Positions 18,001 to 23,229 of a stretch of 64,000 nucleotides of DNA are shown here, one piece after another. Both the position numbers and the translations under genes were made by a program. The DNA is from Isoptericola halalbus (lineage in GTDB: Bacteria; Actinomycetota; Actinomycetes; Actinomycetales; Cellulomonadaceae): NCBI GenBank assembly GCA_009663185.1, contig VJZX01000003.1, forward strand, positions 124,001 through 188,000. The letters are read 5' to 3'. The notes beneath the pieces are model-generated. The model did no database searches. It was not told the DNA's origin and was given only the letters and a program-made list of their open reading frames with translations. Positions within the stretch are counted from its first letter, which is position 1, and every line of letters begins with the position of its first letter.

Positions 18001-20144
18001 GAGTCTCCTCGGGTGTCGGAGAGCGAGACCGGGGCGGCGGGGTCTGCCGCCTCGGCGGGTTCGACGACGGCGACCACCTGGTCCAGGCGGACCTGGTCGC
18101 CGGGCCGCACCGCGAGCCGGAGGGTGCCGGACGCGCGCGCGGTCAGCGGGTGCTCCATCTTCATGGCCTCGATGACGACGACGGTCGTCCCGGCGGCGAC
18201 CGTCTCGCCGTCGGCGACGGGCACGGCCGTGACGGTGCCCGGCATGCCCGCGCGGACCTCGGCGGCGCCGCCCGCGTGCCCGGGGGCGTCACCGTCGCGC
18301 AGTGAGCGCCGTCGGGCGGCGCGGGCGGCGCGGTCGAGCACGGTGTACGACGCCGCGCGCCCACCCGCACCGACCCACACCTCGGCGCCGGCGGACACCA
18401 CCGCGAGGCGGTGCGTCACGCCGTCGAGCGTGAGGAGCCTGTCGTGCTCGGCGCGGCCCGCCGGCCGGAGCGACGCGCGCAGCGTGGCCCCGTCATCGAC
18501 CTGGACCTCGGCGTCCTCGGTGCGTCCGGTGAGCAGCACCTCGTGGGTGACGCCGCCGCTCGCCCGGAGCAGGACGCGCCGCGGCGCCGCCGGGGCGTTG
18601 AGCCGCCAGCCGTCGGCGGCGGCCCACGGGCCGGTCGCGCTCACGCCACCGCCCGCCGTCGGGCGCTCCTGGGACGCGAGCAGCGCGGCCGCCACCACCC
18701 ACCCCCGCGAGCTGTCAGATGCACGTGACCCTCTGGGCTCACCGGCCTCTGACAACTCGCCGCTGTGGGCGGAGGTCGCGACGAGGCGATCGATGAGGCC
18801 GGTGTCGAGCCTTCCCGCGAGCACGTCGTCGTCGGCGAGCAGGTCGCGCAGGAAGCCGATGTTGGTCTCGACGCCGAGCACCGCGAGCTCGTCCAGCAGC
18901 CCGTCGAGCCGCCGCAGCGCCTCGGCGCGGTCGGCGCCGTGCGCGATCGCCTTGGCCAGCAGCGGGTCGTAGTCGCCCGTGACCTCGAGGCCCGGCTGCA
19001 GGGCGCTGTCGAGCCGCAGCGGCGAGGCGCCCGGCCCGGCCGGCGTGCCGCGGTCGTCGAGCGCGAGCACGCGACCCGTCGCGGGCAGGAAGCCGCGCGC
19101 CGGCGACTCGGCGTAGACGCGCGCCTCGATCGCGTGCCCGCGCAGCCGCACGTCGGACTGCTCGAACCCGAGCGGCTCGCCGGACGCGACGCGGAGCTGC
19201 AGCTCGACGAGGTCCAGGCCGGTGACCATCTCGGTCACGGGGTGCTCGACCTGCAGGCGCGTGTTCATCTCGATGAACCAGAACGACGACGGGTCGTCGG
19301 CGGGCACGAGGAACTCGACCGTCCCGGCGCCGACGTACCCGACCGACCGCGCCACCTCGCACGCAGCCTCGCCGAGCCGGACGCGCACCCGGTCGTCGAC
19401 CGCGGGCGACGGCGCCTCCTCGATCACCTTCTGGTGCCGGCGCTGCAGCGTGCACTCACGCTCGCCGAGGTGCACGACGCCGGCACGCCAGTCCGCGAGG
19501 ACCTGCACCTCGATGTGCCGCGGCGCGGCCACGAGCCGCTCGAGCAGCAGGCCGTCGTCGCCGAACGACGACGCCGCGACGCGCCGCGCCGAGGCGAGCG
19601 CGGCCGGCAGCTCCTCGGCCGAGGCGACCACCGTCATGCCCTTGCCGCCGCCCCCGGCGACGGGCTTGACGAGCAGCGGGAACCCGACGTCGGCCGCGGC
19701 CGCGACCAGGTCGGCGTCGGACAGCCCGCCCTCGAGCGTCCCGGGCAGCACCGGCACGCCGTGCTTGGCGACGAGCCGCTTCGCCTCGACCTTGTCGCCC
19801 ATGGTCTCGATGGCCCTGGCGGGCGGGCCGACGAACACGACGCCCGCGCGCTCGCACGCCTCCGCGAGCGCCGGGTTCTCGGACAGGAAGCCGTAGCCGG
19901 GGTGGATCGCCTCGGCCCCGGCACGGACTGCGGCAGCGACGACCGCGTCGACGTCGAGGTAGCCCAGCCTTCCCCCGTCGAGCCGGATCGAGACGTCGGC
20001 CTCGCGCACGTGGCGCGCATCGGCGTCGACGTCGGTGAACACGGCGACCGAGCGGACGCCGAGGCGGCGCAGCGTGCCGATCACGCGGCACGCGATCTCG
20101 CCGCGGTTGGCCACCAGGACCGTGCCGAACGGAGCGGAGAACAT
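17997..20144 (-). CDS. accA1: Acyl-CoA carboxylase alpha subunit (biotin carboxylase and biotin carrier)
   Basis: A 715-residue protein. The biotin carboxylase domain spans about 5-450 with VLVANRGEIACRVI, GYGFLSENPALAEAC, the ATP-grasp loop PVAGGGGKGM and EMNTRLQVEHPVTEM. The C-terminal biotin carrier domain has EAMKMEHP with the biotinyl Lys at 662. With the next-upstream carboxyltransferase it probably forms 3-methylcrotonyl-CoA carboxylase, as for AccA1/AccD1. Residues about 462-478 ([11 protein letters not shown]...DSS) are encoded by a 52-base palindromic element (18708-18759) sitting between the two domains. The ATG at 20144 lies eight bases after the accD1 stop. Confidence 0.94.
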   Translation of the reverse strand: MFSAPFGTVLVANRGEIACRVIGTLRRLGVRSVAVFTDVDADARHVREADVSIRLDGGRLGYLDVDAVVAAAVRAGAEAIHPGYGFLSENPALAEACERAGVVFVGPPARAIETMGDKVEAKRLVAKHGVPVLPGTLEGGLSDADLVAAAADVGFPLLVKPVAGGGGKGMTVVASAEELPAALASARRVAASSFGDDGLLLERLVAAPRHIEVQVLADWRAGVVHLGERECTLQRRHQKVIEEAPSPAVDDRVRVRLGEAACEVARSVGYVGAGTVEFLVPADDPSSFWFIEMNTRLQVEHPVTEMVTGLDLVELQLRVASGEPLGFEQSDVRLRGHAIEARVYAESPARGFLPATGRVLALDDRGTPAGPGASPLRLDSALQPGLEVTGDYDPLLAKAIAHGADRAEALRRLDGLLDELAVLGVETNIGFLRDLLADDDVLAGRLDTGLIDRLVATSAHSGELSEAGEPRGSRASDSSRGWVVAAALLASQERPTAGGGVSATGPWAAADGWRLNAPAAPRRVLLRASGGVTHEVLLTGRTEDAEVQVDDGATLRASLRPAGRAEHDRLLTLDGVTHRLAVVSAGAEVWVGAGGRAASYTVLDRAARAARRRSLRDGDAPGHAGGAAEVRAGMPGTVTAVPVADGETVAAGTTVVVIEAMKMEHPLTARASGTLRLAVRPGDQVRLDQVVAVVEPAEAADPAAPVSLSDTRGDS
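18708..18759. repeat. Palindromic element inserted in frame in accA1
   Basis: Outer arms CGAGCTGTCAG and CTGACAACTCG (one mismatch) enclose weaker inner arms around GTGA and TCAC. It is 52 bases long and fully inside the accA1 frame. A second copy of equal length lies in bkdC at 22870-22921. By hand alignment the two agree at about 43 of 52 positions in one orientation and about 40 in the other, as expected of a near-palindrome. Both encode [11 protein letters not shown]. Confidence 0.85.
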
Positions 20145-20152
20145 GGGCGGCC

Positions 20153-21760: not shown

Positions 21761-23229
21761 GCGCCCTCCCCTGCGGTCTCGCCGGGTCGGTCGCCGGGTC
21801 GGTCGCCCGGGCCGCCGAGCAGCAGCGCGAGCGCCGGGTCCGCGAGCACGGCGCCGAGGTCGGCGAGGAACCGTGCGCCCTGCTCGCCGTCGACCACGCG
21901 GTGGTCGAACGTCAGGGCCAGCGTCATGACCTGCCGCAGCGCGACCTCGCCGCCGTGCTCCCACGGCCGGCGCGCCACCTGCCCCACGGCCAGGATCGCC
22001 GGCTCACCCGGGTTGAGGATGGGCGTGCCGGCGTCGACCCCGAACACGCCCACGTTGGTGATGGTGAGCGTCCCTCCGGTGAGGCGCTCGGGCGCTGTGC
22101 GGCCCTCGCGCGCGGTCTCGGTGAGCTGCCGCAGTGCGGTCGCCAGCTCGACCAGGGACATGCGGTCGGCCCCGGGCACGTGCGGGACGACGAGCCCGCG
22201 GTCCGTGGCGACCGCGATCCCCAGGTTGACGTGCGCGGGCCGCACGAGCTCCGCACCGCCGTCGGGCAGGTCCTCCCACCGCGTCGTCAGCGCGGGATGC
22301 CGCGGCAGCAGCGCACACACGGCCCGCGCGACGAGCGCGAGCACGGTGATGCGCGTGCCGCCCGCCATGCGGTGGGTCTTGAGGCGGGCGAGCAGCTCCA
22401 TGCTGTCCGTGACGTCGACGGTGAGGAAGGTGGACGCCTGCGGTGCCGTGCGCACGCTCGCGACCATGGCCGCGGCCGTGTGCTTGCGCACGCCGCGCAC
22501 CGGGGTGCGCGTCTCGGCGGGCGCCTCCGCGGTTGCCGCGGGAGCCGTGGCGCCCGACGCGGCGGCTTCGACGTCCTCGCGCGTGACCGTGCCGTCCGGG
22601 CCGGAGCCGTGGACGCCGGTGAGGTCGACGCCGAGCCGCTTGGCCATCGCCCGGATGCCCGGCGTGGTGTGCAAGCGCTCGGCGGCCCGGCGCGCCTCGG
22701 GGTCGAGCGTGGCCGCCGCGGCCTGCGTCGGTGCCGCGACGTCGGCGTACTGTCGCGGGCGGCGCTTCGGGCGGCCGGCGCGCTCCGGCCGGGCGCCGTA
22801 CCCGACGAGGTTCGGCTCGGGGCCCTCCTCCGGCGCCGGCTCGGGCGAGCTCTCGGGCGAGCTCTCCTGCGAGCTGTCAGCAACCGGTGAACCCAGAGGC
22901 TCACCGGCTTCTGACAGCTCGGGCGTGGTCACCCCCTCCGGGGGCGTCGGGGCCGGAGCCGGGCTCTCCTCGGCGGCCGCGTCGTCGGGCACCTCGAACG
23001 TCACGAGCGGCTCGCCGACCTCGACGGTCTGCCCCTCCTCGGCGTGCAGCGCCTGGACGGTCCCGGCGAACGGCGACGGGATCTCGACGAGCGCCTTGGC
23101 CGTCTCGACCTCGGCGATCACCTGGTTCAGCTCGACCCGGTCGCCGGCCTTGACGCGCCACGACACGATGTCGGACTCCGTCAGACCCTCGCCCAGGTCC
23201 GGCAGGCGGAACTCGCGCAGCGTCGTCAT
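21757..23229 (-). CDS. bkdC: Branched-chain alpha-keto acid dehydrogenase E2 (lipoamide acyltransferase)
   Basis: A 490-residue E2. The lipoyl domain (about 3-78) has the lipoyl lysine K45 in [12 protein letters not shown] long Ser/Pro/Glu-rich linker follows, then the subunit-binding domain near 158-195 ([15 protein letters not shown]) and the catalytic domain ending with [14 protein letters not shown], which carries the active-site His and Asp. Residues about 103-120 in the linker are encoded by a 52-base palindromic element (22870-22921). The ATG shares a base with the bkdB stop. The C-terminus ends in a short [10 protein letters not shown] repeat. It transfers the acyl group to CoA at the core of the complex. 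Confidence 0.94.
22870..22921. repeat. Palindromic element inserted in frame in bkdC
   Basis: Perfect 11-base outer arms CGAGCTGTCAG and CTGACAGCTCG, and perfect seven-base inner arms CCGGTGA and TCACCGG, separated by short spacers. It is the better-preserved copy of the element also found in accA1 (18708-18759). In the bkdC frame it encodes [17 protein letters not shown] within the flexible linker, where an insertion would be tolerated. Confidence 0.9.

Follow-up and report, generated by a model that had tools for sequence, protein, structure and literature searches.

In a 64,000-nucleotide stretch of the Isoptericola halalbus genome (assembly GCA_009663185.1, contig VJZX01000003.1, positions 124,001 to 188,000; hereafter the window), two neighbouring genes on the minus strand each carry, in frame, a copy of a 52-bp palindromic element. 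The first host, an accA1-like gene (17997..20144), encodes a protein of the acyl-CoA carboxylase alpha chain type with biotin carboxylase, BT and biotinyl domains; the second, a bkdC-like gene (21757..23229), encodes the E2 component of a 2-oxoacid dehydrogenase. Copy 1 (18708..18759, minus strand) corresponds to residues 463-479, between the Pfam domains Biotin_carb_C (340-452) and BT (483-604). Copy 2 (22870..22921, minus strand), a near-perfect hairpin, corresponds to residues 104-120, between the lipoyl (6-77) and E3-binding (187-221) domains. An initial annotation made from the letters alone had proposed 52-base palindromes at these positions, in frame and in interdomain linkers, and all of this holds: both palindromes are present, Pfam domains flank each of them and the reading frame is open. 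The outer arms it had given are exact for copy 2, but the right arm of copy 1, CTGACAACTCG, is one base off. RNA folding of the coding strands gave -32.5 kcal/mol (z -6.7) for copy 1 and -42.7 kcal/mol (z -8.7) for copy 2, in both cases far better than shuffled sequence. No Rfam family matched window positions 18000-23800 at E≤1.

The two copies belong to a family with the consensus CGAGYTGTCAG-N30-CTGACARCTCG, that is, 11-bp arms around a 30-nt core in a 52-bp unit. The element recurs beyond chance. Its strict two-arm pattern occurs at 6 places in the I. halalbus genome as against 0 for a reversed control, and when these 6 were used to build a covariance model, it recovered 20 distinct places at E≤0.01. 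Among 396 genomes sampled across the phylum, I. halalbus included, only I. halalbus matches the strict pattern. In GTDB species genomes the pattern is found in at least 118 stretches, and the 80 matches listed, which include Microlunatus, Propionibacteriaceae, Nocardioidaceae, Frankiales, Geodermatophilaceae, Nanopelagicales, Isoptericola, Luteimicrobium, Cellulomonas and Cellulosimicrobium, are all from Actinomycetota. The distribution of the family within Actinomycetota is patchy. Microlunatus speluncae has about 124 copies, with 248 exact arms versus 5 for the control; the corresponding counts are 66 versus 3 in G005, 51 versus 1 in G001 and 27 versus 1 in I. halalbus (G and L numbers are our own designations of genomes and loci). 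In 910 kb of loci, all chosen for holding a copy, every one of the 274 exact arms is paired, and at least one single exact arm occurs in the I. halalbus genome (G000:C13:35061). Weak covariance-model matches (e.g. L033, L035, L038, L040, L042 and L043) are generic hairpins without the arms, and the 18 genomes of the bacterial family that we count as element-positive therefore include a few false ones. A loose pattern with three mismatches yields false elements and served for reading loci only. Some of the named genomes are incomplete metagenome assemblies.

The arms of the element are fixed; the core is variable, yet its pairing is kept. Across 146 copies of exactly 52 bp (146 of 148 were used; the others differed in length or lay less than 20 bp from a locus end), core positions 11-23 covary. 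Watson–Crick pairing of the core is 0.779 in intergenic copies versus 0.430 after shuffling, and 0.646 versus 0.418 in intragenic copies, all figures inflated by related copies. Bases immediately outside the element also pair above expectation. Twenty regions were selected as probable tandem pairs; in 18 of them paired copies are separated by spacers of 8-10 bp, or of 8 bp if both copies lie within a gene. Some tandem copies are identical, and at L225, L229 and L232 the spacer recurs behind the second copy, a pattern like that of a tandem duplication.

According to our codon-based gene caller, which was compared with the genes of the window, 106 of the 146 copies are intergenic and 40 lie inside genes. 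In tandem intergenic gaps, the upstream stop codon (median 14 bp) is closer than the next start codon (median 67 bp) for 47 of 51 copies; convergent gaps are enriched, with 32 copies versus 13 in divergent ones against a background of 62 versus 131 (10 copies at locus edges were left out of these classes). One cluster occurs in M. speluncae, where four copies lie within 900 bp without called genes (L101:5718-6609), between an amidase gene and phnG and close to an aminoglycoside phosphotransferase-like gene. All 40 intragenic copies (148 copies examined) share a single open frame and encode a hydrophilic linker of the form ELS...DNS/DSS, rich in S, G, A, E, P and D. Frame 1 of the element always contains stops, and frame 3, open in 36 of the 40, is never used; its product would be rich in cysteine and hydrophobic residues. 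Because of this pattern, selection on the encoded peptide would be a simpler reason for the single frame than a target site. A native CGAGCTG as target was considered as an explanation of the frame: 553 of 578 sense occurrences in the named loci are in that frame, and GAGCTG is present at the empty HemE sites of G007, G010, G013 and G015. This explanation is not general, since the empty sites of the NHL-repeat protein, the ABC transporter and L001 read without it.

Comparison of orthologues in related species shows both filled and empty sites. In the HemE loop a recognisable element is present in 2 of 18 Isoptericola species (I. halalbus and G005) and not in the other 16, and filled as well as empty orthologues were seen for the NHL-repeat protein and the ABC transporter. 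The net insert size relative to empty orthologues is 36-48 bp by our count; deletions or drift therefore accompany insertion, and these differences do not allow the mechanism to be read. Several Isoptericola species have the element in their accA1 and bkdC linkers, and the bkdC linker of three species holds two copies. The initial annotation had taken the sharing of the element by two genes of one operon as a sign of spread; the spread itself is borne out, while the operon argument is not needed. It had also named findings that would count against it, namely linkers conserved as protein across distant genera without a nucleotide palindrome, or a lack of other copies in the genome and its relatives. 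With these checked, its reading of a small element that has spread and is tolerated as protein stands: there are many copies in the genome and its relatives, empty orthologous sites, insertions into linkers and loops, and one open frame.

Eight genes are filled both in I. halalbus and in another species, at the same codon in some cases and a few codons apart in others. The cores at such orthologous sites differ by a mean of 19.0 of 30 positions (15 pairs), versus 17.9 between genomes in general, and copies of one genome differ by 9.0-10.6. For 87 of 93 copies the nearest-neighbour core lies in the same genome (24.9 expected). Differing orthologous cores may reflect either repeated hits on the same loops or replacement of the core in old copies.

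Inspection of the genes between copies in G005 revealed a 310-residue protein. The N-terminal half of this protein of about 310 residues is an AbiEi-like winged helix, matched by both profile and fold, and the C-terminal half is predicted to be like a DUF559/VSR-type PD-(D/E)XK nuclease. Clustering of neighbouring genes by blastp put the 25 most connected mainly in one large group, for which an ABC transporter label is assumed. Of the first seven homologues, six have the element on both sides and the seventh is cut off; these came from loci fetched for elements, and their flanking is partly by construction. This locus-selection bias was removed by a profile search over 52 whole genomes. Matches at E<1e-50 occur in 8 of the 18 element-positive versus 0 of 18 element-negative genomes of the bacterial family (p 0.003, ignoring phylogeny) and in 14 of 16 named element-bearing genomes. 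With limits of 450 bp upstream and 400 bp downstream, 17 of 23 matches at E≤1e-64 have the palindrome on both sides, four on one side and two on neither. Two of the one-sided four are at contig edges and two have partial gene matches; both unflanked genes come from G461, and one of them (L361) has another palindrome on both sides. The nearest palindromes lie 65-280 bp ahead of the called start; at the other end of the gene they range from 40 bp within the stop codon to 70 bp beyond it. As a control, 318 other genes of 600-1300 bp from the named loci were scored, one of which has the palindrome on both sides; the same script finds it on both sides of three of four nuclease-like genes and on one side of the fourth, and a separate listing gives both sides for all four.

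More distant relatives of the gene are in several cases bracketed by other palindromes, with the two sides matching (e.g. in G009, G013, G017, G028, G059, G022 and G460). The arms beside such AbiEi-DUF559 paralogues include CGTCTCTG, CGTTCCGG, GCGGGA, CAACGTCCGC, GCAAAGTGGAC and ATGATCTCGGG (loci L351, L354, L355, L356, L362, L375 and L372), and two of these patterns were seen, in the fetched loci, solely beside such genes. A test blind to arm sequence, run on 44 of 50 loci (those with short flanks were left out), found a matching pair at 22 of 44 genes, comprising 14 of 27 with E≤1e-50 and 8 of 17 weaker ones. Among 143 other genes it found none, and among 258 cross-pairs about 1%. Roughly ten distinct arm sequences occur as matching pairs in this test. 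On the protein tree (proteins shorter than 230 residues left out, 35 rows; in a separate analysis those outside 230-360 residues, 34 rows), the TGTCAG label needs 2 changes, against 12.0 when shuffled. Arm sequence thus follows the protein, since paralogues carry palindromes of their own and label changes on the tree are few. The cores tell the same kind of story: for 33 of 43 palindromes at gene loci the nearest dispersed core is in the same genome, where 2.9 would be expected, although those that share a locus do not count as independent (57 palindromes at nuclease loci were available, and 14 were left out, as their genomes had no dispersed copies at hand). Two such genes exist in M. speluncae; the cores beside them differ, and each is the core of one dispersed subfamily. 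The core at the second gene of G001 is nearest to an odd copy in the bkdC linker of the same genome.

The associations found by computation are thus of several kinds: the gene is bracketed by the palindromes and co-occurs with them, arms diversify along with the protein, cores are alike, and paralogues have palindromes of their own. Together they make it probable, in our judgement, that the palindromes are a dispersed, non-autonomous hairpin family that belongs to the chromosomal AbiEi-like/DUF559-like gene, whose enzyme spreads or overwrites them. We infer that the protein binds and cuts its own palindromes. The AbiEi-like half would bind the conserved arms and the nuclease half would cut at or beside the hairpin, after which repair or copying could put a new palindrome at the break or overwrite the core of an old copy. 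Such a process would be expected to leave fixed arms, cores that resemble one another within a species, tandem pairs separated by 8-10 bp and differing cores at orthologous sites. Copies would persist where they do no harm, either right after stop codons or in protein linkers and loops, in the sole frame that is both open and hydrophilic (S/G/A/E/P/D-rich). We lean, with distinctly less assurance, towards the broader view that Actinomycetota harbour a class of palindrome-nuclease systems, in which each AbiEi-DUF559 clade flanks its gene with a palindrome of its own, seeds copies (some in frame in essential metabolic genes) and overwrites old cores, resulting in species-specific cores.

Several observations weigh against this explanation. 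No match to the gene at E≤1e-12 was found in the I. halalbus genome with its 20 copies, among 44 of 63 first-look candidates that were scored; the two copies in the window may therefore have outlived a gene that was lost, or the gene may lie in a gap of the assembly, which has 110 contigs. Nine of the 17 other element-positive family genomes, including the copy-rich G003, G006, G019 and G024, also gave no close match. In G060, G460 and G462 the match at E<1e-50 is not bracketed by this palindrome, and 11 of the 16 named genomes have a gene that the palindrome flanks on one side or both. Half of the genes in the arm-blind test (22 of 44, made up of 13 of the 27 with E≤1e-50 and 9 of the 17 weaker ones) have no matching pair, and 10 of 43 flanking palindromes have their nearest core in another genome; the latter come mostly from genomes with one or two copies at hand, and some of the former (L330, L333, L334, L337 and L342) have low-pairing TGTCAG palindromes on both sides. 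The match to 3hrl is weak, and the Pfam DUF559 match to this clade is below the cut-off. The alignment places no predicted nuclease region in the bracketed gene of G008 (L037:1671-2294), a genome that retains few copies. Visual inspection of nine units of about 1.1 kb revealed no target-site duplication, and neither did the orthologue comparisons, all at species level.

A different reading of the same associations is a regulon: the AbiEi-DUF559 protein would be a site-specific regulator or a restriction-like nuclease, and the palindromes its immobile, co-evolving binding sites. AbiEi-type proteins are DNA-binding antitoxins and regulators, the AbiEi-like domain is supported here by profile and fold, and a match of arms and cores to the resident gene would also follow from the evolution of binding sites. 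We nevertheless regard a regulon as unlikely, given that the copies in tandem gaps mostly sit behind stop codons rather than before starts, that more than a quarter of all copies (40/146) are inside genes, that whole blocks are gained or lost at orthologous sites, that tandem copies, some identical, come with repeated spacers, and that each of the two cores of M. speluncae matches one of its two resident genes. The position 14 bp (median) past stop codons, the enrichment in convergent gaps and the pairing of flanking bases could also point to plain transcription terminators or other immobile RNA hairpins copied by ordinary recombination. Termination may well be a secondary effect of the copies. 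As their whole explanation it is very improbable, because it would be harmful at the intragenic sites, and because the arms are fixed across bacterial families and cores differ between species at orthologous sites while agreeing within genomes.

Being short, palindromic, dispersed and non-coding, the element resembles a miniature inverted-repeat transposable element (MITE) of an insertion sequence with a DDE transposase and the same ends. With all 274 arms paired, no longer element with these ends is seen in the 910 kb, and the flanks tend toward inverted rather than direct repeats. Phage and plasmid collections, with one copy as query, gave nothing beyond pieces of 19-25 bp, and viral contigs had no match to the strict pattern; a MITE is accordingly a poor candidate, and carriage by phages, plasmids or viruses was rejected, as those collections hold no copy. 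DNA uptake sequences, as known from Neisseria or Haemophilus, also form inverted pairs at terminators and prefer certain reading frames. The 3'-end position, the one reading frame and the single exact arm in I. halalbus would fit such sequences; uptake words, however, are mostly single, whereas paired arms at a fixed distance dominate in the loci chosen here, and we give this idea next to no weight. Finally, the architecture, with palindromes that both flank one gene and are dispersed, and with repeats and enzyme co-evolving, is that of repetitive extragenic palindromic (REP)/REPIN families moved by RAYT, a Y1 tyrosine transposase, as set out in PMC2817692 and PMC3116915. That a RAYT moves the present family is hardly plausible and was rejected: PF01797 is mostly absent, occurring in 2 of 58 relatives, 0 of 18 Isoptericola genomes and 4 of 16 named element-bearing genomes (it is missing from M. 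speluncae, with its roughly 124 copies, and from 11 of the 15 others), and none of the seven Y1 loci found has an element within its 3.3 kb.

REPIN/RAYT is still the closest working analogue of the system described here, because the palindromes flank a nuclease-like gene. The systems share a gene bracketed by palindromes that also occur as many dispersed copies, a hairpin doublet of conserved arms, repeats that match the resident gene, co-evolution and species-specific repeats; in both, repeats are mainly extragenic (106/146 here). They differ in the enzyme, which here combines an AbiEi-like winged helix with a PD-(D/E)XK-type nuclease instead of being a Y1 HUH transposase, and the gene flanked on both sides (17/23) is AbiEi-DUF559, not RAYT. 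Further differences are the share of intragenic copies (40/146), the 52-bp units with 11-bp arms and a covarying 30-nt core, and the restriction of the 80 listed genome matches to Actinomycetota. The system thus works like REPIN/RAYT without being a member of it, since a Y1 transposase is not linked here. The initial annotation had compared the element with the RPE palindromes of Rickettsia. The Delihas review (PMC2229807) portrays these as palindromic, dispersed, in frame in protein genes and tolerated as protein, and gives about 100-200 bp for the small repeats reviewed. In-frame insertion with empty orthologous sites (HemE, filled in 2 of 18; NHL; ABC) is indeed common ground. By description, RPE differs in being longer and found in Rickettsia, whereas here 52-bp units are mostly intergenic, largely at 3' ends, and linked to a nuclease-like gene, which makes REPIN/RAYT the nearer comparison. 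We know of no enzyme linked to RPE. TRIT, reportedly described by Gardner in 2011 as a repeated terminator of Mycobacterium tuberculosis, is alike, by description alone, in being a repeated hairpin after genes in an actinobacterium, and to our knowledge it has no link to a nuclease gene. TRIT is also mentioned in PMC3526491. The AbiEi antitoxin of AbiE type IV toxin-antitoxin systems differs from the present protein, in which a nuclease-like half is fused. Among the matches listed by a literature search, with most subscription papers outside it, none described this repeat, or DUF559/AbiEi genes that have palindromes beside them. The enzyme type is other than that of REPIN/RAYT, while the logic of the system is of a known kind.

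The question of how short bacterial palindromes spread has so far been answered mainly by REPs and RAYTs; here a second, unrelated enzyme type appears in the same relationship, and AbiEi-DUF559 proteins thereby gain a testable function. The same bases encode both a nucleic-acid hairpin and a protein linker, and this is so in enzymes that synthesise haem, carboxylate acyl-CoA or oxidise 2-oxoacids. If cores are indeed replaced at orthologous sites, dispersed 52-bp repeats would here show concerted evolution in a striking form.

Other repeats occur in protein linkers and in the window. The bkdC linker of G004 holds a different palindrome family (GAGCCTGTCGA ... TTCGACAGGCTC; peptides VEPVET / LRQAQD), with members at L057 (the G004 bkdC locus) 1750-1795, L125 2653-2701 and L172 7764-7816. 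One arm of this family is present in the accA1 linker of G004 (decayed in G011), and the family is also found in M. speluncae. Long extra linker stretches of a Kgd-like protein in G005 and G014 (L291, L292) resemble each other (SDAKxVxGLAGAS) and are a possible further in-frame repeat. The window itself contains a second palindromic repeat of about 60 bp, TGTGAGCGGAG ... CTCCGCTCACA, at 34794-34860 and 45813-45879, perhaps another family of the same kind; a third copy lies in the same genome directly after a heavy-metal ATPase gene (L020:2432-2489).

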